Shown here: piece by piece, positions 1 through 21,800 of the stretch | How positions within the stretch are numbered: position 1 is the first letter of the stretch | Layout: each line of letters starts with the position of its first letter | Source: a virus | Reading direction: 5' to 3' (one strand) | Length of the DNA: 23,929 bases | IMG/VR virus record: IMGVR_UViG_3300020470_003465 | Span: 1 to 23,929 of that record | Position numbers and translations under genes: made by a program | The notes under the pieces: model-generated | Database searches by the model: none | The model's input: the letters and a program-made list of their open reading frames with translations, nothing else | What the model was told of the DNA's origin: nothing

Positions 1-179
1 TCTATTTGCGGTTCTTCTTCTACTTCCTCAACAGTTTCTATTATCTCTTCTTTCTCTTCAACAATAAAATCTTGAACAGAAGGGAGTTCCTCTGCGTTCT
101 CTTCTGTTATAAAATCTTCGACTGATGGAAGGTCATTATTGACCAAATCATCAATAGAAGGCAAGTCTTCTCTGGACAT
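1..179 (-). CDS. Acidic protein with LPSxxDF repeats, N-terminal part only
   Basis: Read directly from the bases: an ATG at 179..177 opens a frame that runs off the left edge after 59 codons. The visible N-terminus contains three copies of a short motif, LPSIDDLV (residues 6-13), LPSVEDFI (17-24) and LPSVQDFI (32-39). A strongly acidic, Glu-rich stretch follows (residues 41-56, mostly E with I/V). It lies 41 bp downstream of the small terminase gene, where the large terminase gp17 would be expected in T4 order, but the sequence does not resemble a gp17 N-terminus. No strong Shine-Dalgarno sequence is seen close to the ATG; the leader carries a small GGGA/TCCC hairpin at 203..216. I do not recognise the family. 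The repeated motif and acidic linker look like a protein-docking tail, but that is inference. The C-terminal part lies outside the window. Confidence 0.75.
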   Translation of the reverse strand, partial: MSREDLPSIDDLVNNDLPSVEDFITEENAEELPSVQDFIVEEKEEIIETVEEVEEEPQI

Positions 180-220: not shown

Positions 221-640
221 TTATTTAGGATCTTCCTTTAGTCCGTCCTTTAACATTTTTGCAAGGTCTGCAGTCGATCCAACAAATAAAGCATTATTGA
301 CTGTAGATGGTCCCTTGACCTTTTCTTCTGCTTCAACGTCCTTCAGTTTCTTTTGCAGATCCAATAACTTATCTGTTGCATCAGCAACATTTTTAATCAA
401 CTGACCTGCAACTTCATATGCTCTTGGCATCTCACTTTCTTGTGCAAGTTCAAGGACGCCGTTAAGAGCCTCTTGTCCCTTTTCTATGATAGAGTAAAGA
501 TTACCTCTAGTATATTCATAATCTTTTTTGATGTCATCAACACCCTCTTTTACCTTTTCAATTTTTTTCTCTACCACCTCTGGTTGAATAAGATCATCAT
601 CAGTGTTAAAAGCAGTATTCAATTCATTAAATTTAGACAT
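221..640 (-). CDS. gp16: Small terminase subunit, T4 gp16 homologue
   Basis: This 139-residue protein is the DNA-recognition and regulatory subunit of the packaging motor. It acts with the large terminase gp17 to initiate headful packaging at the capsid portal. Recognition rests on the central block from about residue 40, with DYEYTRGNLY, then KGQEALNG, RAYEV, ADATDKLLDLQKK and finally NALFVGSTADL, which parallels T4 gp16 (about 164 aa) as I recall it. The middle (about residues 20-110) is predicted to be mostly helical and coiled-coil, as expected for the ring-forming oligomer. The start is ATG at 640, and its A is shared with the TAA stop of gene 15 (TAATG), suggesting translational coupling. 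It ends CCT AAA TAA; these bases also spell CCTAAATA, a candidate late promoter for the next gene. It is somewhat shorter than T4 gp16. Confidence in identity is high. Confidence 0.92.
   Translation of the reverse strand: MSKFNELNTAFNTDDDLIQPEVVEKKIEKVKEGVDDIKKDYEYTRGNLYSIIEKGQEALNGVLELAQESEMPRAYEVAGQLIKNVADATDKLLDLQKKLKDVEAEEKVKGPSTVNNALFVGSTADLAKMLKDGLKEDPK
222..229 (-). promoter_or_regulatory. Candidate late promoter CCTAAATA before the acidic gene
   Basis: On the minus strand the end of gene 16 reads TCCTAAATAACC. The octamer differs from the T4 late consensus TATAAATA only in its first two bases, and its last bases form the TAA stop of gene 16. It lies 42 bases before the ATG of the next gene. 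Inferred from sequence and position only. Confidence 0.45.
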
Positions 641-1675: not shown

Positions 1676-1683
1676 TATTTAGG
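1676..1683 (-). promoter_or_regulatory. Candidate late promoter CCTAAATA before gp15
   Basis: The minus strand reads TTCCCTAAATAAAAATATC. The TAA is the stop codon of gene 14, and the octamer lies 37 bases before the gp15 ATG. It keeps the TAAATA core of the T4 late promoter. An inverted repeat follows immediately. Confidence 0.5.
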
Positions 1684-3133
1684 GAATACCGAATGGGTTC
1701 TGCTCAGAGAAGTCTATGATAGCGTCTGCTTCTGTTTCAATGTTAATATTATCAGCAAATCCATCATCAGCAGGTTGATTATCTGATTTTCTTAATGGAT
1801 AAGTTGCACCAGATGTAGAACCAACAATATTTTCACCAACAGTAAACTCTCCAGTAACGGTGCCAACTTCAAGAACATTTTCTGTCGCATCCCATGTTCT
1901 GACTCTGGCTGTGGTTCCACTAGAGGAACCTGTAACAATTTCATTAAATGCAAACGTGCCTGAACCAGAACTCTCTGGATTTCCAACAACGATTGTTGGA
2001 GCAACTGAATATCCAAGACCAGCATTGGTAACGTGAATTGCAGAAATAGTTCCAGCAGCACTTACAATTGCGATGGCAGTCGCTGATGCAGTTGTAATAC
2101 CAGATTCAAATACCTCATCAGTAAACGAAATGGTAGGAGATACAGTGTATCCTCCACCACCAGAGGTGACTGTAATCAGACCCACCACACCATCACCGAT
2201 AACCGTTGTTGCTGCTGCCCCCGATCCACCTTGACCAGACGGGACGCTAAACTTAACAGTCGGAGCAACAGTATATCCTGCTCCAGAATTTGCGACGTTT
2301 ACTGCTTGTACTGATTGTAGTTTTGCGTTTGCATTAAGATTACAAACATTTATACCACCAATCATTGTTGCTATACCAACTGCTGTTGTGCCGCCAGCAG
2401 GTGCTGAAGTGACGCCAACGGTTGGAATGACGCTATATCCGCCACCTCTATTAGTGATATCGAAATACCTAACACCACCATCAAAGATAGCAGATGTTGC
2501 AGTTGCTGTTACTCCAGCACCAACCAAAGTAAGTGTTTGAGTTGGTCCTTGAATGGTATTGATACCATCATCAGTTTGTCCATCATAATCCTCACCAATG
2601 AGATTATTATCAATTTCATCTATACCAGTTGATATAACCTCATCTTCAAGACGGAAGAGTTCGCAGTAAAGTTCATAGACATAAAGGTTTTGAAGTTGGT
2701 AATATGGTTTTGCATATTCAACATCTTTGATCTCATAAATTCTATCATCAAGTGGGAACCAAATTAAGTCTCCACCTTTTGGTCTTGTGGATAATTTGAT
2801 ATTGGACTGATCTTCTATTAGAGGTGTAATATAATTTTCAAATCTTTCTCTTGATATAATAAGTCTCACTTCATCTTGAGACTGAATACCAAATTTTGAT
2901 AAGATGTTTCCAGCACCAGAATATTGATCGTAGTTGTCAATGTATGCTTCAAGAGGTAAAGCTAAGTCAAACTTTGATTGAACAACCTCTCTAATGACAG
3001 TATTTTCTGTCATATATTTTCTAGGCAGATAGAAGATATCTACTCCATATGTTCGGAGTTGTTCATTAATCAAGTCCTGAACAAGATTTTGTTCAGAAGT
3101 CGTGCCTTGAGTGAAAAACGGATTTAACACCAT
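1679..3133 (-). CDS. gp14: Neck protein, T4 gp14 homologue with a large beta-repeat insertion
   Basis: This 484-residue neck or head-completion protein works with gp13 to close the filled head and dock the tail. Residues 15-165 carry the conserved core: GVDIFYLPRKYM, YSGAGNILSKFGIQSQDEV, KGGDLIWFPLDDRIYEI and PYYQL, all with clear parallels in T4 gp14 (about 256 aa, from memory). The C-terminus NPFGIP recalls the SPFDNDF end of T4 gp14. Between about residues 195 and 450 there is an insertion absent from T4: four GxGYxxxPT repeats at 230, 284, 326 and 372, followed by two GE...SGxT units at 396-447. The start is ATG at 3133, four bases after the gp13 stop, with AGG as a weak ribosome site. 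The stop TAA at 1681..1679 is part of a CCCTAAATA motif. Core identity is confident; the role of the insertion is unknown. Confidence 0.9.
   Translation of the reverse strand: MVLNPFFTQGTTSEQNLVQDLINEQLRTYGVDIFYLPRKYMTENTVIREVVQSKFDLALPLEAYIDNYDQYSGAGNILSKFGIQSQDEVRLIISRERFENYITPLIEDQSNIKLSTRPKGGDLIWFPLDDRIYEIKDVEYAKPYYQLQNLYVYELYCELFRLEDEVISTGIDEIDNNLIGEDYDGQTDDGINTIQGPTQTLTLVGAGVTATATSAIFDGGVRYFDITNRGGGYSVIPTVGVTSAPAGGTTAVGIATMIGGINVCNLNANAKLQSVQAVNVANSGAGYTVAPTVKFSVPSGQGGSGAAATTVIGDGVVGLITVTSGGGGYTVSPTISFTDEVFESGITTASATAIAIVSAAGTISAIHVTNAGLGYSVAPTIVVGNPESSGSGTFAFNEIVTGSSSGTTARVRTWDATENVLEVGTVTGEFTVGENIVGSTSGATYPLRKSDNQPADDGFADNINIETEADAIIDFSEQNPFGIP
1949..2536 (-). repeat. Four GxGYxxxP(T) protein repeats inserted in gp14
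   Basis: Degenerate repeats of about 42-54 residues within gene 14: GGGYSVIPTV, GAGYTVAPTV, GGGYTVSPTI and GLGYSVAPTI, each preceded by a beta strand such as ITVTSG or IHVTNAG. The codons vary between copies, so similarity is kept at protein level. Confidence 0.85.
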
Positions 3134-3137
3134 GATA

Positions 3138-3974
3138 TCAACCTATCATATCCAGTGGAGGAAGTTCATAGGTGTTTGACATCTGCTCCCTAATAATTTC
3201 TAAATCTTTTTCTGCATCATCATAAATTTGTCTTCCATTTAATTCGATTCCTCCGGGTAACTTAACACCTTGGAATTTAATTAAGTTTTGACCCCACTGC
3301 CTTTTTATAAGAGCTGTAAGATACCTCTTTAAGAAAGAATCATTATATACTCTGGTAAAATCATTTGGATCTAAAAGTCTAGTGCAATCTATAACAAGAT
3401 AATCATCAACGCTAACAGATCCCCAATCAAGATCTAAGTAAAGTCTATCTTGTCTTTGATTAAATCTAATTTGTTTTTCTGTAGTGAGAAGAAAATCAAT
3501 ATCTTCAAGATATGTCTTTGTCATTGCATAAGTCAATAACTCAGTTGATCCCCAATAATAAATGTCGTTCAAAAATAACTGATATCTAACACTAAACATG
3601 TTATTAGTAACAGTGTTAGATCCGTCAAATCTGAAAATTTTTGTTATTCCGAGAACCTCAGGAGGAACCTGAAGATAGTTGCTATTCTCTTCATATTGAA
3701 ATGATGTTGGAGTTCCATTAATAGAAGCACTAGCACTGGTAGTGACGATACCAACTTCGTTTGTTCCTTTTCCCCTATCAATATCTGCTTGCGTAATCTT
3801 ATATTTTAAATATACCTGACCTACACCGTCAAAGTGTCTTTCATGAAAATACTGTAAGGCATCATCAACAAGATCATCTACTTGCTCATCGGCAACATTA
3901 ATTTCAAGCACTGGAGCTCCCAGTTGCCTTTTGCAATAATTGATTAGATCCGCTCTACTTGCTGGTTTTGCCAT
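3138..3974 (-). CDS. gp13: Neck protein, T4 gp13 homologue
   Basis: This 278-residue protein is a head-completion or neck subunit that assembles on the portal with gp14. The N-terminus resembles T4 gp13: RQLGAPVLEINV (residues 16-27), a helical DDLVDDALQYF segment, and HERHFDGVG. The C-terminus KFQGVKLPGGIELNGRQI followed by DDAEKDLEIIREQM also matches the T4 pattern (ARHQGMMLPGGVTVDGQ, from memory). T4 gp13 is about 309 aa, so the length fits. The start ATG at 3974 follows GTGGAATAA, in which GGA is a short ribosome site. Upstream, within the 26-bp gap to the preceding gene, lies a CCTAAATA candidate late promoter that overlaps that gene's stop codon. This protein has no inserted repeats, unlike gp14. 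The identity is secure; nothing odd is seen. Confidence 0.93.
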   Translation of the reverse strand: MAKPASRADLINYCKRQLGAPVLEINVADEQVDDLVDDALQYFHERHFDGVGQVYLKYKITQADIDRGKGTNEVGIVTTSASASINGTPTSFQYEENSNYLQVPPEVLGITKIFRFDGSNTVTNNMFSVRYQLFLNDIYYWGSTELLTYAMTKTYLEDIDFLLTTEKQIRFNQRQDRLYLDLDWGSVSVDDYLVIDCTRLLDPNDFTRVYNDSFLKRYLTALIKRQWGQNLIKFQGVKLPGGIELNGRQIYDDAEKDLEIIREQMSNTYELPPLDMIG

Positions 3975-4559: not shown

Positions 4560-4773
4560 GTAATAACTCCTTTAGTAAAGATTTAATTTCATCAATGTCA
4601 TCCTTCATGTTAGCAAGTTCTTGCTCCATGTTCTGTGTCTTATGATTCTTTTCACTTTTCACTTTACGTCTCGCAAGATATTGCTGATATTCTAAAGTGT
4701 TGACATTAACAACTGCATTTGTCTCAGGATCTCTTGCGAGATCCTTATGACCCTCTAATCCGTAAAAGTCCAT
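4549..4773 (-). CDS. 74-residue protein with C-terminal coiled coil, unknown
   Basis: A 74-codon gene whose ATG at 4773 shares its A with the TAA stop of the DUF4815 gene (TAATG), suggesting translational coupling to that very long message. The N-terminal half has the pattern GLEGHKDLARDPETNAVVN, then VNTLEYQQYLARRK, a type I recall in small conserved proteins of T4-like marine phages. The C-terminal half, from about residue 45, is a heptad-like helix with MEQELANMKDDIDEIKSLLKEL, a likely short coiled coil. It could be a small structural or chaperone protein for the large neighbour; this rests only on position and coiled coil. Its end overlaps the following gene by 11 bp. No enzymatic motif is present. 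Confidence 0.75.
   Translation of the reverse strand: MDFYGLEGHKDLARDPETNAVVNVNTLEYQQYLARRKVKSEKNHKTQNMEQELANMKDDIDEIKSLLKELLHGS
4567..4573 (-). promoter_or_regulatory. Strong ribosome-binding site of the 60-residue gene
   Basis: AAAGGAG on the minus strand, seven bases before the ATG at 4559. It lies inside the end of the upstream 74-residue gene and is a main reason to accept this very short gene. Confidence 0.8.
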
Positions 4774-7700
4774 TATGCTAGTGCAATCACTCTAAGTTCT
4801 TTGATCCTAGGAACAAAGCACTGACTATTGGATGCTAGTGAAATCTTCACTCTGTAAGTTCTGAATGCAGGGAGTTCATCCGCTGTAAACGTGTACTCTC
4901 TATAATCAAGAGCTTCACTATCAAACGCTTTTGTATTTGATTTGACAATGAAAGAATCAGACTCTCCATTGCTATTTTCTGCAGCGATTACTTGACCTTT
5001 AGAATTCAAATTAGAATAACCAGGGAATGGTGTAAATACGGGGTCAAGACCAACCTTATCGTTAACAGCATAGAATGCTCTAATATCAGCATCTTCTCCA
5101 ATATGTGCAGACAATATAATTTTAATCGAAGATGCTGAATTCTCAAGAACAGTCTCTTGGGAAATGTATTGACATGCAGTTGGATCCTCTCCAATCGTAT
5201 CTACTCTAGAATCTGTAGCATAGTTTGTAATAATATTATTGACTCTATTAGATGTTACAATGGCGTTCACTCTTTGAGCGTCAATAACTGGACTTATGCG
5301 AGTGTCAGTTGTATTCAGTGCCAAACTCATTTGCATCGACTTTCCACCAACAACATTAGTCAACTTCAAATCTTCATTTATCTTAGAAGCAATCATTCTT
5401 GGAGTGTCAAAATAATTCTTTTGATTAATTACAATATTCTCGAATCCAGCATCAACATATGGGATCTCATTTCCACTGAAACTCTTGCTAGTTGTTGTTC
5501 TAACAGTAGCACTAATATTTGTTCCAGTAACAGTGAGATTTTGAACTTGTGGTGTGATAATCTCAAATGGCATGTTTTGCGTGGCCCTTACCTCTCTACC
5601 ACCAGTGGATTTATTTCCACCGATATAGAGTTTTGGATGACCAACATCAGTGCTTCTATCAGTTCCAGTGGTAGAACTCATATCCAATTTGACTTTATAA
5701 GAATCAAATGTAAATGGATCTGATTCGGTAACGTCACTCAAATCATGAGTTCTATTTACTCTCTTCAAGTTTATACCTGAGTTTTCATATTTAAATACTG
5801 GAGTTCCAACTGGATACGTTCTAGGATCTGTTCCTCTAACAATATCTCCACCAACATTATTGCCAGAGACATTTGTATATTCAATGATTTCTTCTCCAAT
5901 CAGAAGGTATCCAACATTTGTAGTTCCGACTCCAACATTTTCAAATGTAGAGAATGTTGTTCCAGATCCAACAGCGATTGCTGACGTAGATCCAGAGGAA
6001 TACTCTGCAGTCAACTTAGTTGGTTTAACATCTGGAAGAACTCCAGAAATAGCGACAGAGTTTTCTGTGAAATACATACCATGATTCTGATGGTTCACCT
6101 TAAAGTGAGTTCCCTCACTATCAACATTAATTGATGTAATCTGAACATCTCCACCTACACCGCCAGGAAGTCCATAATTAAGTTCTGTGCTAATTCCAGA
6201 ACTGTTAGTGTACATGAGAGTTTTTGCTGCACCGACAACAAATTCTCCTTGAACATTATTGAAGACCAATTCATTAGTGATACCAATTCCAGCAATTGTC
6301 AATCTTGCATTTCTGCCAATGGTAGCAATACCGATTGTAGTAATGCCAAGAACATCTCCAACTTGATATCCAGAACCACCACTTGCAATTGTTGCACCAC
6401 TTGCGACAATTGAACCATCTTTAATACTGATATCGGCAGTAGCACCTCTACCATTACCTGTAATGGTTACAAGGTTTACTCCAGAGAATGTAAAACTTCC
6501 ATCAGCTGGAGTGTATCCAAGACCTGCATTACTGATAGTAAGATTGCCAACCGCAGATGCAGCAGATCCTACATAATCTCCTGTTGCATTAGTTCCTTGC
6601 TGAGTAAATGTATTACCCAATTCAAATCCAGAGTCAGCTACAGTAGTGCCTAAACCAACTCTAATTTGTCTAGAGTTCATGACGATTGGATCTGGAAGAA
6701 GTTTTGGAATCTGATTATTTCCTCTAGTCAACTCTGGACTGTAGAATTCGACAGATCCAGTTTCAACAAAGTCTGCTCTATAAAGAGTAAACTTAAGGTC
6801 TTCCCACTGACTTGGTTCCCATGTAGAAGCGTTTTGTGACTTAAACAAAGATCCAAGATATGGTTGGTTAGAAATAAACGTATCTGAGAGAAGATCGTTT
6901 TCACCAATACGTGAGATGTAAACACTATATTTGGTGGAGTTAGATGCAAGACATATGGCATATTCAGTGCCACCCTCTACATAAACAGGAGCTTTAAATT
7001 GAACATTAGTCGCAACTGATCCATCTGCAGAAGTTTCAATATCATCTGGATCAAGAACAATTTCAGAGAATGGAAGAACTCTAGGAGATGGAACTCCATT
7101 TTCCATTGATCTAAGTTGGAAGACAACAGGAACATCCATGTCGTCTTTTGTTCTGAAAAATACGTCGCAACTAGTTAAGAAACATCCAGTTTCATCTTCA
7201 ACTAAGAAAGATTGAGCCAGTGGATCATACCAAGTGATAATTTGTTGAGTTCTTGTTCTTGAAGAAATAACTCTACTCTCAACAACTTCAGCATCAAGGA
7301 CTCTGTTAATGTTTCTACTTTGGAACTCATTCTTCATTTCAACTCTTGCATTTCTGACAGAGATGATATTTTCTTGAACGGTTTCTAAAGTTCCTGTAGA
7401 AGCAAATCCTTCTTCTGCAATAGTTACTGCTTGATCCTGATTATTGTCAATATTATCAGTCAAAGTAAATGTTTTTGTCCCAGTTTCAAATCTTGGGAAA
7501 CTAGCATTGTTTGGATCAGGAATGTAGTAACTACCAATCAATGTAGCAGATATGTCAGAGACAAGTCTTACGTTGGACACAGATGCGATAGCACCACTAC
7601 TTTGTCCACGAAGAGTCATTCCTGATCTGACCCATCCATAGTATTGTCCTTGAGCTTCATTAGAAAGAGAGAAAGTATCAACGTTCAAAACAGTTGCTGT

Positions 7701-10700
7701 TGAAGAATAGGCAGCAGATAAGTCCTGACTATTATATGGATTTTGTCTAAACGTTTTTGTTGGTGCATCATAAGGACCTTCCCTATGATTAGATTGTGCC
7801 ACTCTAAATCTAATAAATGGTGAAGATGGAAGAGTGTTAGATCCGATGTCACCAACAACTTCTGTCAGTCCAACTACAGTTTCACCGACTTCAAATGTGC
7901 CAGAGACCATTGTGATTTCCAATAACTTTGGAACACAGTACTTAGAAACATCAACACCATCAAAGAATGGATAAAGTCTTGTGAGCGGTTTAACTTTCTT
8001 AGAAACAAACTCAACGTTTCTAGATCTCATGAATGGAATGAGATCTCTACTAACAACTCTATCTCCAACAGACTCACGATCAAACTGTTCGGTAACAATG
8101 GTTCTAACACCATTTCTGGATCTAGTTCCCGTCATTGTTCCGGTCTGAATTCTCTCTTCGGTAACCGAATCCGTTACTTGTCTTGTCTCAACTCTTGTAC
8201 GAGATCTACCCCCAGGGCCCTGGCGGTGAATAACATCAGGACCATTTTGAATAACTCTTGTTCTGGTTGATTCAACTATGTCAATACCAGTCCAGTTGGT
8301 TTCCCAGGAGTCCCAAGTAATAGGACCAAATCCTGTCTGGGGATCAATGACCCCATCATCAACCATATTATTAAAGGTTTCTGCGTAATTGCCCTCTGTT
8401 TCAATAATTTTTGCTTCTAGTCTTGCAGTATCAACCCAACTATCAGATGCTGGAGTAAGTTCAAGAGTTCCGTTCCAGAAACTAATCAAGAAAGGAGTTA
8501 CACTTTCGGTTCTGGTAGCGAAATTTTGTTTGATGTATTCAACTTCTGCATAATCAAGAGTTAATATATCATTTTGTTTTCTAACGTTAGCACCTTCTAC
8601 GGTAGAAAAGTTGAGATCTAAGGTTGGATCTGCATCTACTACAGGTCCAAAGATCATGTCAACTGAATTTGTATAATGTCTTGGTCTTAGTTCATTATAC
8701 TTTCTATCAATTGCGTTGTTAATTTTAAATGCAGTATCTTGAGCTAAGAAATCATTGAAGTTATCTACAAAGAATCCAGACTTAAACCTGTTTAAACCCT
8801 CACTATCTGAAATAAAGAAGTTTGCAGTTTCTTTCTCTAAAAGTGAAAGAGTTGTGTAATATTCAAGACTCTTGATTCTATTTTCAAGTTCCTTGATATC
8901 CTGCATTCTAAATCTCTTATGTTGCAAGAAAGTGAACTTAGCATCTCTGACGTTATACAAATATGCTGGTAGTTCTACTCTACAAATTTCAAGAGAATCA
9001 TCAACAGGATCTGGTTTTTGTGGGTTATCTGATGGTGTTCCATAAACAACTTGGAATTTACCTTCTTTGGACAGATAAACTCTGTCAATTCTTCCTTGAT
9101 AATAAGAAACGTCTGTTAAAATTGCATCATCCGATGCAAGAGGATTTGCAGCAGATTGTCCAGATCCATCAAATGCTCTACCAAAAAACTCAAGTGGAGA
9201 TCTTGAACTCTCTGAGACAGTGTGATCAGAGACTCTAGGTCTAATATCAATAATATCTGATGTTCTGAAGACGTTTACATTCTTAATATCATTGGTGTAA
9301 TCTAACTGTGAATAAGAATTAACCGTTGTAATATCACCATCATCAGTGCTTGAGTATGATGCACTTGAGAAATAAATTTTTAACTGCTTCGATGGTTGAG
9401 TATAGTCTGATTTTCTCTTTATTCTTCCATGGTCATAGAAAGTATTTTCTTGACCAGTCTTGAAAGTGTAATTAGAAGAGATATTAAAACTAGGAGTTGA
9501 TAATGTTGAAACCAGCGCAGATGCATTTGACTCTTCAAACTGTACCGTTTCACCCTCAACGAAAGCTATTTCATTTTTGTAAAGGAATGAAATAGATGAA
9601 TCATTTAGTTTTTCTGCTACTATAGCTGCAGCACCACTTGTTTGTCCAACAAACTTCTCACCAATTAAAAGTTCTGCAGTTGTTGTTGAACTGGTATTAA
9701 TCGATTGCAGCACACTTTGTGGGCAAGATGGAGCAGAAGTATCTGCAGATTCAAAAACTCCATGAATTTCGATGACATCTGGAGTATTCAACGAAATAAT
9801 TTCATCTTCAACTCTTACACCAAAAGGATAACTACCAAAGATTAATCCGTTATTCAGAGTCGTTGATCCAGTTCCAGAACCAGACAGTTTTGATTTATCT
9901 ACAATAATAGAGTTGACTCTATTTTTAATTTTTTCTTTTGCTTTTGGTTTTACTTTTCTGAGAGTTGCGATTAAAGTCGCACCAGTATCATCTGTTCCAA
10001 GGTTACGGATCAATAAAGTTTTACCGGTTGTTGCAATATCAAATTTATCTGCACTTAATGCTTCTGTTGATCCATCAGATCTAATCAACAAATATCTCTC
10101 TTCATCAAATGGCAAAAATGATTCATTAGTATCTGCCACCACCTGTGCAGATAATTCATTATTTGCAATGTTTACTGTGAATGTTTTTCTAATGCTCAAA
10201 GACGCATCGGCAAGATCGACATTAGAAACATTGATTTTAGGTAAAGGTGTGAATAAAGTGTCATCAGATGAAGGTGCTAATTCAGTGGTTAGAACCTTCA
10301 GATCCGTTACATTTAATGTTGCAGCTGGTAAGAATCCACTAGAAATGCCAGTAACTGCTGCGACACCTGCTACAGTAACGTGAGTTGTTCCAACGCTAGT
10401 AACTCTTGCAACAATCGGATCACCGTCTAATCCTGGTGTGGTGTCGCTGTATTGAATTAAATCATTTTCTTTTACGATAGTTCCTGGGAACAGTGTATTT
10501 GTACTCTTAATGGTGCTAATTCCACCGGAGAGAGGACTTACGGTCGCAATACCAACTGTAAATTTATTAGATTGAATTACATCAGCACTAAAGGTGTTAA
10601 TACCAGTTGTTCCATCATTTGTTCCATACACAGACTTAGCGTCAGAAATAGTATGCTCAGTAATTGCTATAGCAATTCTACCGTCAGCAATTCCATTAAA

Positions 10701-12302
10701 GATAAGTTTTTCATTTGGAATAAAGGTTCCATTAGTTTCATATACAGTCATTGCTGTTCCAGCAGAAACAGCATGTCTTAAAAATCCTGTGGCACCACTA
10801 TTATCTCCTTTGACAAATGTAGGAATAGATAAAGTGTGTGCCTGATTCAGAGCAATGTCAGTTGTTGTTTGTACATCATAAAGAGCAAGGTTCCATTCGT
10901 TCTCATTAGCATTGGAGGAACTATATGACCCAGACTCCAATCTGAAATCATACACCCTTGCAACACCAACTTCATTTCCAGGAAGAGTTTCTGAACTACT
11001 ACCAAGTCTTTGATCTCTTAGACTTACAAAATATGTGTTTCCAACTCCGATTGTAGGTGTTCTATGTACCCGATTAATCCTTAAGGTTGGTCCAGTATTA
11101 TAAATTATGCTTTGATCTTCTAACGTTCTGGTTGTTCTTGGTTTATCTACATCAAGATATACAGCATTGACGCTTTCAATCTCATAACCTTTAATGTATG
11201 CTTTACCAGGAGAGACTTTATATAATGCTAAATCATCAGTTGGTGTAACACCACCTGGAGTAAATTGACCTGAATTGAATATTCCTTCATTGCCGATATT
11301 ATCATTTAATGATTCAAACGCAGTTATATCAAAAGCCTTTACATAGTAATTTCCAGATTCATCAAAAGTTCTTCTAGCAAGTGTATCGGTTACATCATTA
11401 AAACTAGCTCCTCCACCAAAGAGAGTCTTTCTAGATGTGGTTTGAAGAACACCATTAATTACTGTTGCCAATAAAATAAAATTATCATCATTAAAGTCAT
11501 CAAGTGATTTTTTGAAAAGACTTGTGCTAATTCTGAGTCTATCCGCACCTGGTGCAGAGTAATTACTAAACCCCTGCGAATTATCATTCAGTTCTTCATC
11601 TAAATCTGAAGTGATAATTTCTTCATTAATAAAAAGACCAATTCTATAACTAGGAGTATTTGAATATTGATCTAAGATTAATGTCTCTCTATCTACATTG
11701 ACAAAATTTCCTCTAATAAAGTAAACACCATTTTCAATTTGAAAAGCAGATCCTATCTGAGCCGCATTGGTTTCTATTGTTGCACCAAAAGGAGTTCCAG
11801 CAGCAATCGTCGTATTGCCCAATAAACCGGAGGTTATAACTTCACTGGATGAAAGTTGTTCACCATCAAAAAAGGTTTGAGTTGAGTTATTTGCAGTGCT
11901 AGATCCCAGATAATTTATATAAAGTGTCAAATTTCCATTTTCCGAGTCCTCTGGTAAAAGGACACTTTCAACAACAGCAGTTACTCCAGATGTTTGTCCA
12001 GTTATCTTTGTACCAACTACCTGATCCGCATATGCAGATACAGGAACACCCTGGAAAGAGTTATCCAACTGAACACAATAATATATTTGAGAATATCCAG
12101 TATTTCCTGGAATTACCTTAGCACCCTCTTTAAAGAAATGTTGACCAAATCTTTCAATTTGATTTTGCAGTATGGATTGAAGAGATGTTAACTCTCTAGC
12201 TTGGACAGGATATCCAGGTTTGAATAATACCTTATGATAATCGTTCGTAGGATCAAAATCGTCAAAGTAGGGTGCTACGTTGAGGTTCGTCTGCTGTGGC
12301 AT
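4773..12302 (-). CDS. Very large virion structural protein, DUF4815 type
   Basis: This 2509-residue protein begins with the DUF4815-like pattern: YFDDFDPTNDYHKVLFKPG, VQARELTSLQSILQNQIERF and a following GAKVIPGN (residues 12-67). Other conserved-looking blocks are a helical segment RMQDIKELENRIKSLEYY near 1131-1150; an Arg-rich stretch (about 1340-1400) leading to LIPFMRSRNVEF and YPFFDGVDV; DPLAQSFLVEDE near 1691 with DVFFRTKDDMDVPVVFQLR; and QPYLGSLFKSQNASTWEPSQ near 1811. The C-terminus, from about 2300, carries DTRISPVIDAQRVNAI and FRTYRVKISL. I recall such blocks in large virion proteins of cyanophages and pelagiphages. Short modules shared with other genes are embedded: SGxTAxV units near residue 100, GxGY units near 1925-1980, and an EE...RG unit near 2131-2170. 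It starts six bases after gp8 with a weak AAAGA site, so it is probably co-transcribed with gp8. Likely a baseplate or fibre component; the exact role is unknown. Confidence 0.85.
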   Translation of the reverse strand: MPQQTNLNVAPYFDDFDPTNDYHKVLFKPGYPVQARELTSLQSILQNQIERFGQHFFKEGAKVIPGNTGYSQIYYCVQLDNSFQGVPVSAYADQVVGTKITGQTSGVTAVVESVLLPEDSENGNLTLYINYLGSSTANNSTQTFFDGEQLSSSEVITSGLLGNTTIAAGTPFGATIETNAAQIGSAFQIENGVYFIRGNFVNVDRETLILDQYSNTPSYRIGLFINEEIITSDLDEELNDNSQGFSNYSAPGADRLRISTSLFKKSLDDFNDDNFILLATVINGVLQTTSRKTLFGGGASFNDVTDTLARRTFDESGNYYVKAFDITAFESLNDNIGNEGIFNSGQFTPGGVTPTDDLALYKVSPGKAYIKGYEIESVNAVYLDVDKPRTTRTLEDQSIIYNTGPTLRINRVHRTPTIGVGNTYFVSLRDQRLGSSSETLPGNEVGVARVYDFRLESGSYSSSNANENEWNLALYDVQTTTDIALNQAHTLSIPTFVKGDNSGATGFLRHAVSAGTAMTVYETNGTFIPNEKLIFNGIADGRIAIAITEHTISDAKSVYGTNDGTTGINTFSADVIQSNKFTVGIATVSPLSGGISTIKSTNTLFPGTIVKENDLIQYSDTTPGLDGDPIVARVTSVGTTHVTVAGVAAVTGISSGFLPAATLNVTDLKVLTTELAPSSDDTLFTPLPKINVSNVDLADASLSIRKTFTVNIANNELSAQVVADTNESFLPFDEERYLLIRSDGSTEALSADKFDIATTGKTLLIRNLGTDDTGATLIATLRKVKPKAKEKIKNRVNSIIVDKSKLSGSGTGSTTLNNGLIFGSYPFGVRVEDEIISLNTPDVIEIHGVFESADTSAPSCPQSVLQSINTSSTTTAELLIGEKFVGQTSGAAAIVAEKLNDSSISFLYKNEIAFVEGETVQFEESNASALVSTLSTPSFNISSNYTFKTGQENTFYDHGRIKRKSDYTQPSKQLKIYFSSASYSSTDDGDITTVNSYSQLDYTNDIKNVNVFRTSDIIDIRPRVSDHTVSESSRSPLEFFGRAFDGSGQSAANPLASDDAILTDVSYYQGRIDRVYLSKEGKFQVVYGTPSDNPQKPDPVDDSLEICRVELPAYLYNVRDAKFTFLQHKRFRMQDIKELENRIKSLEYYTTLSLLEKETANFFISDSEGLNRFKSGFFVDNFNDFLAQDTAFKINNAIDRKYNELRPRHYTNSVDMIFGPVVDADPTLDLNFSTVEGANVRKQNDILTLDYAEVEYIKQNFATRTESVTPFLISFWNGTLELTPASDSWVDTARLEAKIIETEGNYAETFNNMVDDGVIDPQTGFGPITWDSWETNWTGIDIVESTRTRVIQNGPDVIHRQGPGGRSRTRVETRQVTDSVTEERIQTGTMTGTRSRNGVRTIVTEQFDRESVGDRVVSRDLIPFMRSRNVEFVSKKVKPLTRLYPFFDGVDVSKYCVPKLLEITMVSGTFEVGETVVGLTEVVGDIGSNTLPSSPFIRFRVAQSNHREGPYDAPTKTFRQNPYNSQDLSAAYSSTATVLNVDTFSLSNEAQGQYYGWVRSGMTLRGQSSGAIASVSNVRLVSDISATLIGSYYIPDPNNASFPRFETGTKTFTLTDNIDNNQDQAVTIAEEGFASTGTLETVQENIISVRNARVEMKNEFQSRNINRVLDAEVVESRVISSRTRTQQIITWYDPLAQSFLVEDETGCFLTSCDVFFRTKDDMDVPVVFQLRSMENGVPSPRVLPFSEIVLDPDDIETSADGSVATNVQFKAPVYVEGGTEYAICLASNSTKYSVYISRIGENDLLSDTFISNQPYLGSLFKSQNASTWEPSQWEDLKFTLYRADFVETGSVEFYSPELTRGNNQIPKLLPDPIVMNSRQIRVGLGTTVADSGFELGNTFTQQGTNATGDYVGSAASAVGNLTISNAGLGYTPADGSFTFSGVNLVTITGNGRGATADISIKDGSIVASGATIASGGSGYQVGDVLGITTIGIATIGRNARLTIAGIGITNELVFNNVQGEFVVGAAKTLMYTNSSGISTELNYGLPGGVGGDVQITSINVDSEGTHFKVNHQNHGMYFTENSVAISGVLPDVKPTKLTAEYSSGSTSAIAVGSGTTFSTFENVGVGTTNVGYLLIGEEIIEYTNVSGNNVGGDIVRGTDPRTYPVGTPVFKYENSGINLKRVNRTHDLSDVTESDPFTFDSYKVKLDMSSTTGTDRSTDVGHPKLYIGGNKSTGGREVRATQNMPFEIITPQVQNLTVTGTNISATVRTTTSKSFSGNEIPYVDAGFENIVINQKNYFDTPRMIASKINEDLKLTNVVGGKSMQMSLALNTTDTRISPVIDAQRVNAIVTSNRVNNIITNYATDSRVDTIGEDPTACQYISQETVLENSASSIKIILSAHIGEDADIRAFYAVNDKVGLDPVFTPFPGYSNLNSKGQVIAAENSNGESDSFIVKSNTKAFDSEALDYREYTFTADELPAFRTYRVKISLASNSQCFVPRIKELRVIALA

Positions 12303-15811: not shown

Positions 15812-15819
15812 TATTTATA
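15812..15819 (-). promoter_or_regulatory. Late promoter, perfect TATAAATA, before the tail fibre gene
   Basis: The minus strand reads CAGTATAAATATTTTT. This is an exact match to the T4 late promoter core, 19 bases upstream of the fibre-gene ATG. The TAA in the motif is the stop codon of the giant gene. Only a weak AAAGA ribosome site follows. Confidence 0.7.
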
Positions 15820-18800
15820 CTGTGTAGTTCTTAAATTTAAGAAAGCTATCTCTTATCAAAATATCAGAAGTGGAAATTCCAGCAATTCCTTCTAAAGTAT
15901 GTGCAGTATAAGAATTATTCTTTGTCCTTGCGACAAGATCAATTTTACCCCAAGAGAACTCTCCAAAGTAATTTGAAGTTGATATACCACCAGCATATCC
16001 AGAATTTTCACTATGATCCATGGTTACTGTCTCGTCATCCATAAAAATTGTAGTAACACTAAAGTTAATAGTTCCAATACCACTCAATTCAGAATTAACT
16101 CTCAAGACATTTGTTGAAATTCCACCAACATTTCTAGAAACAACTGAAACTCGTTTTGCTTGATGCACTGTATCAATAAATTGAGTTGCAAATCCTATCT
16201 GATTACCTTCATTATCAAATGTTTCAATTGTTGAATTTCCTTCGACACTAGCATTTGAATTAAAGATAGTGAAGTAATCGTTAACAGATATAGAACTTAA
16301 AGTAACAGCAGTTCCAACTAAGTCAGGATCTCTAAGGAAAGAATCATATGGAATATGAAGATCCACAATTACTTCATTGACTCCACTAATTGTTGTAGTC
16401 CCAAATCCAACAATAACTCCAGAATCACCAACATAAGAAGAAACATTACATGCTTCCTCAGAATATGCTTGAGGTTCAATTAATACACTTGGAGGATTAC
16501 TGGTAGTATATCCAGTTCCAGCATTTGTTAAAGTAATAGAAGTAACTTCACCCGATGTTAGAGTTGCAGTTGCAACCGCAGTTGTACCCAAACCAATGGA
16601 TTGAGATGTGCTACCGATAGTAACTGATGGTACGGAATCATATCCAGATCCACTTTCTGTTATTGAAATAGAAGAGATAGTACCAAATTCAGAAACAACT
16701 GCAGTTGCAGCAGCAGCTACCTTAGTTTCTTGTTTTATAAACTTAATTTTATTTTGGAATGTAAGACTTGTATCATTCTCGTTTTGAGAGTTAAATATAG
16801 GTCTTAAATTATCAACATAGATTGCTGTAGATCCCACTCCAACAGACTTAATAATGTATGCACTTGGGTTAATAACTGGTTCATAAAGTTCTCTATCCTT
16901 ACCAACAGGAATATCATTGATAAAGACATCTTCAGTTTGTCTACACCAAACTACTGGTCTTTCTAAAGTAACATCTGCTGTGTTTCCTGGTCCAGAGTAT
17001 GGATTTGTTCCAACTAAGTTAGTTGATTTAATTTGATCGACTACTCTCTCATCTTCATCCAAGGAAGATGCTTGTCCAATGGACGCATCATGCATGATTT
17101 GAAGAGTGTCTCCCTTCTTAACAGTTTCAATTATATTTCTAAAGATAACATCAGTATCTCCAGTTCCTTTGTAGAACAAGATGTTAATAGAATCACCTAT
17201 TTTTGGTGCCTCTGTAAATGTAATGATACTTCCACCAGTAAATGTATATGCCTCACCTGGAACTTGAAGTATGTCATTTACAAATATGAGTAGAACGTCT
17301 TGAACGTTAATTTTAGATCCTTTGCGAGTAACAATGGAAATTCTGTTTCCTGCTTGGAAAAGTGGGAAGTCTTTTCTAGTTCCATCAATAAAATCTCTAA
17401 CATTATCAAGAGCTTGAAGTTGCCCAACTGACCAACCAGAGAAGGCATCATTAAAGACTTCATCTATAGTAAGTTGGAATTCATTTGCAGTAGAGAAAGA
17501 TGATGTCGTTGGTATACCAGTAAGTCCACCAACGGGAACTGTCAATATTTCACCATTACCAAATCCATATCCAGTATTTCTAAAGGTAAAGTCAATGACA
17601 CTAGATCCTTGACCAACTACAATATCAACAACTGCGCTGGTTCCTACTCCAACAACACTTGAAGAAGAATAATTCAAATGAATATTAGAGTAACTTAGTG
17701 GATCGTCGATTACAACATCAAGTGGTTTATTGACTTTACCACATCTTGCATAGAAATGTTTTCTAGTTGAAATACCAGTGTTTATTTCAAAAGTTGTACT
17801 GTCAATGACTTTAAGAACATTTGTTCCGTCTACTGCTGGGTCATTTCCGCTAGCAGAATTGTTGATTGCTCTTGGTGCAATAAGAACAGGTTGAGCAGTT
17901 CCTCCACTTTGGAAGAAAGTTGGAACTGTAGAAACACCAGCATTGATTTCAAATTCAGTGGAACTGTTAACTGCAGTTACCTTAGCACCACAATAAACAG
18001 GGTCTGTTGTTCTTGGATAAGTATGAGTGGATGACCCACCATCAAGTCCACAAGTAAATCCAAGACCGGTCAGAAGAACGTCACTCTTTTCTCCAGTAGT
18101 AGAAAGGTTATGAGCAGCTGATGTGGTCACAGTCATAATGCCACTTACGTTATTATAAATGGCGTTAGTGACATTAACTGGTCCTGCACCACTATAATCA
18201 CATGTGAACGCTATACCAGAAACAATAACTTGATCATCGAAAGACAATCCATGTGCAGTTGATGTAGTGACTGTTGTTAATCCGGTTATTGAATTATAAC
18301 CAACATTTGATATATCTCTTGGTGCATAGAATACCTGGGAGTTTGTAACCGCAACTCCAGTAATATGTCCACCAGATATTGATGCAGTTCCGATAGAAAC
18401 AATGTTCGATCGTGCTGTAGAATCTGTTCTGATAGCAACATTAACAGTCGTTTGTATTCCAGCTCTATATCCAGAACCACTGTTACCAATGGCGATAGAG
18501 GTGATGGTTCCAGAGGCAGATACAACAGCAGTTCCACCAGCAGATATGAGTGGTTGATATCCAAGACCTTCCTCAGATCCAACAGAAACAATAATTCCAC
18601 CTTTAGGGAAACTAGAGATTCCTACATCTGGACCAAGTGGAGATGTTTCTGTACCCTGGAAAGCAATCGTAGAAATTCCAGCAGACTCATTAATGATATA
18701 TTGGTCAGAGAGTCCTGGTGCTTGGAATACACTGTTGATTAAGATGATTCCATTTTCTGTAGAAATTCCTGATACATTAGATCCGGTTTGTTTTAATGTA

Positions 18801-21800
18801 AATTCATTTTCCGTGCCATTGAACTGATCCGAAATATTATCAAAGATATAGTTTTTATGATAGGATTCATCGGAGGTGTTTTCAATGCCAGATCTCATGA
18901 AACTTCTACCTTGGAAACTAGAACTGGTTGATATTCCAGTCCAATCTCTTTCATCTGGTGGATTTGTTGTAGAACCAATAGGAACATTTCCAAATGGTGC
19001 CTCTACAAAATTAAGATGATTATCAACGATGTTATAGTTGCCAGTAATCTTGGTTACAAGTGTTCCGGTTCCATATCCAGATAAGACCGTGCCTAACCAA
19101 GGTCTACGTACTCTAATGGCATTTGTTGATCCAATACCAACACCTTCAATTTTCATTATCTCTGATCCTATTTGTATCAAATCAGATCCAAAGAAAGATG
19201 TTATGCCGCTAAATTTTATTAAATTGTCAACGTCAAAAACTTGCTCAGCAAGAGTAGTTGTTACCGAAGTGGCCACAACTGGTGACTGGATAAGATTATC
19301 CAAAGCAACAAGCACTTTGGCATTCTGGTTTGTTGAAATAAATCTATGGGATGTGCCAATACCGACACTTTCAAGTTCAACAATTTCTGGAATTGATTTA
19401 AGTGCATTTTCTGCGCTGGTGGCAATTTTAATGTTGTTGTCGTCAACTTTAACTGCAAACAGATTGTCTCCGGGCAAGAATGTAGTATTAGCAGCGCCAA
19501 CAAATGTTGTTGTTGCAATACCGACAGCAGATGAAGCTGTTCCAACATGAACATATCTAATTTTTTCACCACTTACAAAGAAGTGATTTGGAATCTTAAT
19601 TGCATTAGTTGTTACGTTAACAATATCGCTATCATTACCTAAGAAATATCTTTCAAAAATAGGTTCGTTTTCATGAGTTAATGCAAACTCTCTCTTAATG
19701 TCAGATTCCGTTCCAAAATATTCTCCAAGTCCATCACCAATAGATGCATTTGTAAATCCTACACTGGAACTATTATCGGAGTTATCATTGACAGTCAAAG
19801 CATTCATGTAAACATTAACTACAGTGTCAATACTTGCATTTGGAGTAAACACAAGAGAAACCGTTCCTGCAGCAGAAACTCTTGATCCAAATGTTCCAAG
19901 ACCTGATGCAGTTTCAACGTTTGCATATTCGGTCATGTAGACATCATATGAATTAGTTGTGTCTACATAATCGTCAACCAACACAATTTCCGACATTTGA
20001 GTGGAAGTATTAGTTGTATCAATAACTTGTGCAATAAAGTACGCACCATCATGATCATTTTGATATTCAGCGACCGTAGTAATTCCTGGAGTTCCTGACG
20101 CAGATATACTTGTCGTTCTACCTTCAAGTCTAGATCTTCTCAGATTGATAGTTCCTATTCCGGTGGAGGTATCTGTTGCAAGTCCAACAGTGACTGTGTT
20201 AACAGCACCAGTTGTTCCAATACCAGTAGCCGTTGGAATAAAGTCAACTTTTAACGTTGATCCATCAAGATATGCATAATATGTTCCAACACCGGTTATT
20301 GCATATTCTCCAGGACTGGTTGATAATCTACCGTATTCGAGAATTTCTACATTTGTTCCATCGTGAACAATATTTAATTCAATTGCTTCAAATTCATTTC
20401 CAGAAACATCAGTGTTGATGTTAACCAGAACTTTTGCAGAAGTATAAGTGTTTGCAATAGAAACGATGGTTTTAGTTGTATTGGATGGAACTTCAACACT
20501 CTTAGTATCGATTAAAACAACTCCACCAAGACTTGTGCTTCCAGTGCTCAGAACAGTATCTTTTATATTGTATCCGAGGGTAATAATATCGTAATCATTA
20601 ATAGTAGAATTACTTGGGTGGAATTGCAATTGTGCATCAGAACCAGCAAATGCAAAGTCAAAAGATCCTTGATCATAATGAGTTTCAACTCTTGCATATT
20701 GATTCATGTATCCATTAGATCCATCATGCAGTAAATCAACCAGCATCAATTGTCTTTGAGCTACGAATCTCTTGTCTCTTATATACGTTATGTACTTTTG
20801 AAGTCTGGCATCTGATAATGGTGTGGTTGCAACTACACTGAAATCTGTTGGTCTTGGATTACTATTAAATTGACCACTCAGATCATCGATGGAAAGAACC
20901 CTATTTCCAACAGATTCAAAGAAATCAGTTAAGATTCTATTTGAGAATATAATTTCATTTGAAATTGTCTTCGTATTTTGATTTAGATTATTTTCTGCAA
21001 CTAAATCAAAATCATAAACACAGTGTAGACTTGCAAATCCATCTAAGTGATTAACAGCATCTAATGTGGTAAGAGCAGTTGTGAGACCAACAGACATGCT
21101 GTTCTCATTCACGGTTTCCAATTGATAATCAGAGAACTTTCTGAATCCTAATGTGTGATTTAAACTAGCAACAGAATCGTTCCAGGTATCATATGGAACT
21201 TTAGACTTAATAGAGTATGAGAAGTTTTGATAGTAGAAACTATCTTGAATTTTTTGAATATCTTTATTTAAGAATCCAGTGTCGTTTTGCCATCCTTGTG
21301 CTATTTTGGATGATGTTTGCAAGTTTACATACTCTACATAAGATTTGATAGAAGAAGCGATTCCCTGAGTTTTTGAACTTGTTCCCTCTATAATCTCTCC
21401 AACTTTAAACTTATTGTCTGAAGAAACTCTTAAGGTTACAACTTTTGTATCCCAACTATCAACAACTCCTATTGCAGAATCAGATTTAACTGTCTCTCCA
21501 ACAATGAAGTTATGGGTATCTAAAAATACATCGAAAGATGGGAATCGTTTTTGTGCCAGTATCTTTCCAGAAGAATTTACAGAATCAAATGTTCCTGGAA
21601 TTTCACTTCCAACGAGAAGATCAGAAACATTGAATGACACATCACCAATTCCACCCAAGTTTTCAGTGACTCCGGTCACTGAGAACAGTTTATAATCATA
21701 AGCGGATGAATTATATCCTTTTCCTGTTGATCCAACACCAACACTAACTCCCTCTACAAGAATTTTGTCTCCAACTGCAAATGGGAAAGAATTAATTGTG

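Follow-up and report, generated by a model that had tools for sequence, protein, structure and literature searches.

In outline, the fibre described here resembles fibritin (wac) of phage T4, and its gene, too, adjoins neck genes. In the available part of PMC3797505, T4 fibritin is presented as having an N-terminus of about 50 amino acids conserved for neck attachment, a loop-interrupted coiled coil and a replaced C-terminus; unlike the fibre reported below, no repeated-motif arm is described for it there. According to the accessible portion of a review (PMC2984593), wac and several T4 tail-fibre genes were not found in cyanomyoviruses—with analogues being expected—and a whiskered cyanomyovirus from St. 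Kilda is mentioned. The interval between gp16 and gp17 is treated in the part of PMC3037559 at hand as a hot spot of Synechococcus-phage gene content, and neither that part nor the accessible portion of PMC2984593 yielded an explanation of how fibres encoded in this interval are attached.

We analysed a stretch of viral DNA of 23,929 nucleotides (IMG/VR record IMGVR_UViG_3300020470_003465, positions 1 to 23,929; hereafter the window), at the edge of which the 5' part of a gene runs off the end of the record (59 codons, positions 1–179, minus strand). On the evidence of sequence comparison, we assign a probability of about 0.6 to the reading that this open reading frame (ORF) encodes the N-terminal end of a long virion fibre of T4-like marine (cyano)phages, carrying a multivalent docking arm and an exchangeable tip. 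The reading builds on direct observations of the extent of the gene, the conservation and copy variation of its motif, its linkage to gp16, its match to fibre families and the exchange of fibre types at the locus. What is new is the N-terminal arm of the fibre, built of short motifs in tandem; the known kind to which it belongs is the phage tail fibre.

The gp16 neighbourhood

The upstream neighbour of the fibre gene, across a 41-nt gap, is the terminase small subunit gene gp16 (221–640, minus strand), assigned by its matches to 488 phage records—most of them named Synechococcus phages or cyanophages, and annotated mostly as terminase small subunit among the matches listed. Beyond it on the same strand lie genes for a gp15-like tail sheath stabilizer (640–1638; from annotated features in Bellamy and S-SM2), a gp14-like neck or head closure protein (1679–3133) and a gp13-like neck or head-tail adaptor protein (3138–3974), the last two identified from annotated features in named relatives. 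The named phages listed for the first 4 kb are led by Bellamy, S-SM2 and SynMITS9220M01, with DNA identities of 71–73%. Stretches resembling GxGYxxxPTV recur, by eye, in the gp14-like protein and in two very large ORFs (4773–12302 and 15815–23929), and the C-terminal half of the SynMITS9220M01 fibre weakly matches the gp14-like and wedge proteins of the same phage—as if a repeat module were spreading among structural genes.

The sequence-only reading placed the motifs where T4 has gp17, directly after gp16. In none of the four named relatives examined is gp17 the next gene, since two to five genes intervene: besides the fibre, the interval holds four genes in SynMITS9220M01, two in S-SM2 and Bellamy, and one in P-TIM68. 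Because of this separation, the position of the gene after gp16 does not imply a part in the packaging motor. P-SSM2, S-SM1 and syn9 carry genes other than these fibres after gp16. Between the fibre and gp17, two further loci encode tiny proteins (L084:4075–4194 and L095:8951–9106) that start with MKTFKQFQE or MKSFKQFQE, starts that may resemble the T4 capsid-targeting leader.

A motif arm on a fibre-type protein

Translation of positions 179 to 1 (minus strand) from an ATG at 179 gives 59 residues, and agrees with the motif pattern first noted from the letters—LPSxxDF/L starting at residues 6, 17 and 32, with Glu-rich sequence after the third copy. By translation and alignment, the first copy is LPSIDDL (residues 6–12; 144–164), followed by LPSVEDF (residues 17–23; 111–131) and LPSVQDF (residues 32–38; 66–86), with an acidic stretch at residues 40–56 (12–62) ahead of the helical shaft, all on the minus strand. 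Acidic residues account for 22 of the 59 positions and K/R for 2 of the 59. Of 200,000 shuffled versions of the arm, 4 contained a single match to LPS[IV].D[FL] and none contained more; elsewhere in the window, frames of at least 40 codons hold one copy only of the pattern LPS..[DE][FYL], namely LPSSLDL in a 71-codon frame lying opposite a large ORF. The codons for Leu, Pro and Ser differ between the copies (TTG CCT TCT, CTT CCA TCA and CTC CCT TCT, in order), and the three copies are therefore not a recent DNA duplication. The triple motif on an acidic arm is confirmed.

The remainder of the gene could be obtained from related loci. In the nearest listed relative, L002, gp16 is 100% identical and a complete gene (L002:4462–6351) encodes 630 amino acids, the first 59 of which are the same as those of the window ORF; an orthologue of 1167 amino acids, annotated as 'hypothetical protein', is present in SynMITS9220M01 (QJT70106.1). 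The L002 protein is laid out as a motif arm (approximately residues 1–60), a helical shaft, a linker and a beta-type tip, with PEV[KR]YYD elements in the shaft at residues 79, 99, 126, 153 and 337 and a conserved DPLTP...GGGG linker near residues 395–432. Hydrophobic periodicity at 3.4–3.6 in residues 60–190 was equalled by 0 of 1000 shuffles, with a maximum not exactly at 3.5 (power 0.35 there), hence no canonical heptad is demonstrated; in residues 193–380, the periodicity exceeded 990 of 1000 shuffles and peaked nearer 3.67.

The same region of the locus is occupied by comparable fibres in named phages. QJT70106.1 shares the three-copy arm, the shaft and the position, with 54% identity over a 460-residue query, and differs in being longer and in its PFILALS tip. 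The Kyanoviridae proteins SSM2_107 of S-SM2, 121 of Bellamy and AVU42_gp096 of P-TIM68 are like the LPS-arm fibre in their gp16-adjacent position, where they are annotated as 'tail fiber protein', and in a linker of the GGGGEVRLEFLDDVDRD type, which is found also in some LPS-arm fibres (L071). However, they differ from it in having an LxxFFxxIG N-terminus, no LPS array and no PEVKYYD before the linker. In S-SCSM1, the gene after gp16 bears the note 'long tail fiber protein (virion protein)' and the product name 'baseplate wedge subunit'; its protein has a PFILAL-type tip, as in some arm-bearing fibres, on a different N-terminus, with no LPS arm or shaft in the part examined. This annotation lends indirect support to a virion location of the LPS-arm fibre. 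The S-SCSM1 virion contains 45 proteins by mass spectrometry, as given in the available part of PMC9602691; for the LPS-arm fibre, our searches found no virion proteome or structure.

Profile searches likewise point to a fibre. Three PHROG tail-fibre families match: phrog_30742 to the full protein P0002 (E 1.5e-36, with the best stretch in the tip), phrog_28263 to the shaft and linker of P0002 (E 4.3e-32) and phrog_17885 to the tip of P0003 (E 8.5e-146), the other matches being to tail or fibre families, to families of unknown function and, weakly, to others. The arm alone (P0001) had no PHROG match, and the full-protein matches leave it uncovered. Pfam and NCBIfam searches found no terminase-type domain in P0002 or P0003. 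Candidate matches to baculovirus PEP_C, NPV_P10, spectrin-like, seadornavirus VP6 and Vat(C) families were rejected, with Pfam or NCBIfam scores below the curated cut-offs, and searches of PDB sequences returned weak matches only (best E 0.036). Neither Pfam (E up to 0.1) nor the PDB sequences (E up to 1) gave a fibritin match, and membership in the T4 fibritin family by sequence was dismissed on this ground. Foldseek comparison of the full-length model with BFVD gave eight matches at E ≤0.001—one tail fiber-like protein (P-TIM68), one uncharacterised S-SKS1 protein and six without names—which, with a mean query pLDDT of 47 and TM-scores of about 0.1, amount at most to sequence-level support.

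Structure prediction was carried out on single chains, for the full-length protein and for residues 1–140. The full-length AlphaFold model (22 sequences) had a mean pLDDT of 47 and a pTM of 0.20, with nearly all of the first 60 residues below 50 and a low-confidence shaft of helices separated by breaks. The model of residues 1–140 (91 sequences) was better locally, with a mean pLDDT of 71.5 and values below 50 at residues 43–53 of the acidic stretch, and had a pTM of 0.20, with no global fold. In the full-length model, short helices were placed at residues 3–5, 9–13, 21–24 and 35–37, the last three starting no more than two residues from a Pro-Ser; in the shorter one, they were placed at 3–5, 9–13, 20–23, 26–28 and 35–37. 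Both models thus put a helical turn on each motif copy (9–13 on the first, 21–24 or 20–23 on the second, 35–37 on the third), and also short helices outside the motifs, at 3–5 in both and at 26–28 in the 1–140 model only. The models fit motif turns on a flexible arm, in which Ser may act as the N-cap. The sequence-only reading had considered that the full protein might be a structural one in which the motif residues are buried in the fold: the protein is indeed of structural type, and burial finds no counterpart in the models, where the arm is without a fold at low confidence.

Conservation of the array

Arm loci were gathered from viral-contig searches, in several of which the best 80 loci were kept, and from the named records L082 and L090. 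At least 190 loci carry an LPS arm and hold at least 126 distinct arms; the 190 include overlapping loci of the same contigs (e.g., L002 and L100), represent 135 distinct gene starts over the first 180 nt and reach the gene stop in 108 cases. The motif, a search for which in proteins between gp16 and gp17 of related phages had been suggested, occurs two to six times per arm. With the looser pattern, 108 of the 126 distinct arms have three copies, 11 have two, 5 have four, and one each has five and six (the latter a tandem array in L229); with the strict pattern, the corresponding numbers are 92 with three, 27 with two, 6 with four and 1 with five. In 185 of the 190 loci, gp16 lies within 150 nt upstream of the arm, and within 1500 nt in the other 5. 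The linkage is the same when the 149 loci retrieved through arm, shaft or linker, and not through gp16, are considered by themselves (144 within 150 nt and 5 within 1500 nt). In L310, near position 2738, an LPS arm is followed by a Cys-rich stretch, GEYFCNDEQKCKPIPKGHKV, that resembles one in a GC119-type protein encoded close to the fibre gene of other phages (SynMITS_097).

When L002 was aligned with 90 of the 126 other sequences listed (91 in all), L6, P7, S8, L17, P33 and S34 were invariant and P18, S19 and L32 were present in 89, 90 and 88 of the 91, respectively—a conservation that is partly built in, since the aligned set was selected for at least two motif copies. D/E predominates at motif position six and F/Y at position seven, and several spacer columns reach 2–3 bits of entropy against the near-invariant Leu-Pro-Ser. 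Selection by at least three shaft elements limits this circularity, while missing proteins with decayed shaft repeats: among 130 distinct ORFs chosen in this way, three copies were found in 96, two in 12, four in 6, six in 1 and none in 15, so that 115 have at least two copies and not one has exactly one. At the LPS columns, six codons are used for Leu and four each for Pro and Ser, in a count that required LPS and so shows variation of codons, not of residues. The peptide, therefore, and not the DNA has been kept.

These observations bear on two other explanations of the arm. A low-complexity repeat with no specific function would match its acidic, repetitive character and its lack of a fold in the models; against that, Leu-Pro-Ser is nearly invariant under many codon spellings and the shaft-bearing ORFs carry two or more copies or none, and we regard this explanation as scarcely credible. 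Mimicry of DNA by the arm, raised in the sequence-only reading, would likewise suit the charge; the conserved LPS core and aromatic position are unlike what a mimic depending on charge only would be expected to keep.

Within SynMITS9220M01, no other protein carries the LPS motif in frames of at least 40 codons. A relaxed scan of that phage (P[SAGTK][DEQKSNR][FYLI]F or PS..[DE][FY]) found near-N-terminal matches in _011 and _028 besides the fibre, together with scattered further matches, in numbers too small to interpret. The strings LPSVEDF, LPSIDDF, LPSVEDY, KKPSDFF and KYYDEEI were absent from the literature searched, where sequences are seldom printed.

Sister fibres, exchange and a proposed docking role

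Fibres that share the linker and lack the LPS array have a short motif of their own. In 64 of 73 distinct ORFs, P[SAGTN][DEQ][FYLI]F occurs near the N-terminus, with its Pro at residue 6 in 59 of the 64; the first Pro of the LPS arm is usually residue 6 or 7. Of the nine that do not match, three belong to an LxDFF class and several are close variants (SPKELF, KPSELL), and some sister fibres carry a second copy about 30–40 residues on (e.g., APKEYF). Among control ORFs of at least 200 amino acids from the same loci, 10 of 636 match, and on inspection by eye these seemed themselves to be fibre genes, either truncated ahead of the linker or overlooked by the pattern used for it. Named members of this PSDFF type—BOW86_gp223 of S-CAM7, SWZG_00030 of S-SKS1, QCW23021 of S-B05 and the AG-345-O18 fibre—have the linker common to LPS fibres and a short P-[SG]-[DEQ]-aromatic-F near the N-terminus, and those of S-CAM7 and AG-345-O18 have PExKYYD shaft elements too. 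They differ in having one motif, or one and a second P-K-x-x-F, instead of the LPSxxDF array, and S-CAM7, S-SKS1 and S-B05 differ also in having no annotated gp16 in the 5–6 kb flanks examined. A third arm class starts with LxxFFxxIG (S-SM2, Bellamy and P-TIM68). LPSxxDF and PSDFF may be equivalent, judging by position and resemblance; direct homology is not claimed, since their spacing and register differ.

Three further observations concern the same group. Many fibre genes at PSDFF-arm loci (L007, L010, L019 and others) are apparently GTG-started, and a search restricted to ATG begins about 100 residues late and misses the motif. SWZG_00030 of S-SKS1 (L336:3933–7496) is a PSEYF-arm fibre with the product name 'baseplate wedge subunit' and no annotated gp16 within 5 kb. 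Finally, an ORF near the baseplate hub genes of SynMITS9220M01 (L086:6590–8569) starts with MRSTKALSPSKFFGG and has a fibre-like PSxFF near its N-terminus.

The tips vary across both arm types. Of 110 distinct ORFs whose 3' end is present, the 55 with an LPS arm divide into LTVALDG-type (24), PFILALS (10), FKV-type (10) and other tips (11), and the 46 of PSDFF type include 9, 4 and 4 of the first three, respectively. The LPS-arm ORFs hence have what marks a tail fibre, a conserved N-terminal part and a variable, exchangeable tip. This distribution also bears on a host-side role, in which the arm would be exposed and bind, for example, a host surface or periplasmic protein: the variable copy number and spacers would be in keeping with it, whereas the motif core is conserved across differing tip types and the short aromatic motif near the N-terminus of sister fibres hardly shifts in position, which makes such a role improbable in our estimation.

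Comparison of close relatives revealed exchange of the whole fibre type. L161, which has an LPS arm, and S-SM2, which has another, share 89.6% identity along 3,258 nt, to the last base of S-SM2 gp16; past gp16, only 52 nt (83%) near the 3' end of the fibre match, and beyond the fibre a match of 205 nt resumes at 96.6%. Similarly, identity between L127 (LPS arm) and L242 (PSDFF arm) is 89.0% along 3,486 nt that reach to the end of gp16, after which the sole match is 251 nt at 72%. These pairs at about 90% are the closest found, the median identity between arm classes being about 71%. In L161, near 3070–3080, the gp16 match falls into two pieces in different frames, through either a sequencing error or a real frameshift. 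Taken together, these comparisons give the fibre the appearance of a modular cassette carried by a particle that is otherwise conserved.

The same pairs weigh on the partner of the arm. The sequence-only reading had considered it plausible, from position, that the partner belongs to the packaging motor or prohead, and binding of gp16, gp17, portal or prohead during DNA packaging would accord with the close linkage to gp16 and with the strong acidity of the arm. Yet the remainder of the protein is fibre-like, loci with gp13–gp16 about 90% identical carry fibres without this arm, and several genes lie between gp16 and gp17 in the named relatives. The LPS-arm gene is probably not part of the DNA-packaging motor, and we consider a packaging role, DNA mimicry included, very improbable. 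What stands of that earlier proposal is its more general part: an array of two to six copies with no predicted fold fits a repeated linear motif that would bind several copies of a partner.

A different partner might be a fibre chaperone or trimerisation helper, bound during maturation and not at a docking site on the virion. Phage fibres often need chaperones, transient binding suits short acidic repeated-motif arms, and S-SM2, Bellamy, P-TIM68 and S-SCSM1 each have, just upstream of gp13, a gene named 'L-shaped tail fiber protein assembly'. On the other hand, the arm is N-terminal, normally the virion-proximal end in such fibres, and arm classes differ despite upstream genes that are about 90% identical; both points would still accommodate a chaperone, and we hold this reading to be unlikely. 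The N-terminus is also the attached end in T4 fibritin, as presented in the available part of PMC3797505.

Under the preferred reading of the arm as a docking element, a flexible, acidic segment of about 60 residues, usually with three LPS[VI][ED][DE][FY] copies, would precede a long helical shaft that is broken up by PEVKYYD elements and probably forms a trimeric coiled coil, the trimer being conjectural, and a conserved GGGG-ending linker would lead to the variable beta-type tip. Each motif copy could form a short helical turn when bound, with Ser as the N-cap and an acidic residue closing the cap, such that Leu and Phe/Tyr would lie on one face and might dock in a groove on a protein of the virion. 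Avidity would come from having more than one copy on each of several chains, and the joint would thus be multivalent yet flexible. The arm would then act as a conserved plug, presumably located at the virion, whether at the neck in the manner of whiskers or at the baseplate, and the tip as the exchangeable host-recognition end.

We further propose, tentatively and with more doubt than conviction, that one fibre socket common to marine T4-like phages reads either P-S-[DE]-aromatic-F or tandem LPSxxDF, with the grip tuned by two to six copies. If true, a common socket would imply plug-and-play fibres and a mode of docking that differs from attachment through a folded N-terminal domain. With a docking motif that is short and can be counted, such fibres could be recognised and grouped in metagenomes, and the motif could explain how differing fibres fit nearly identical particles.
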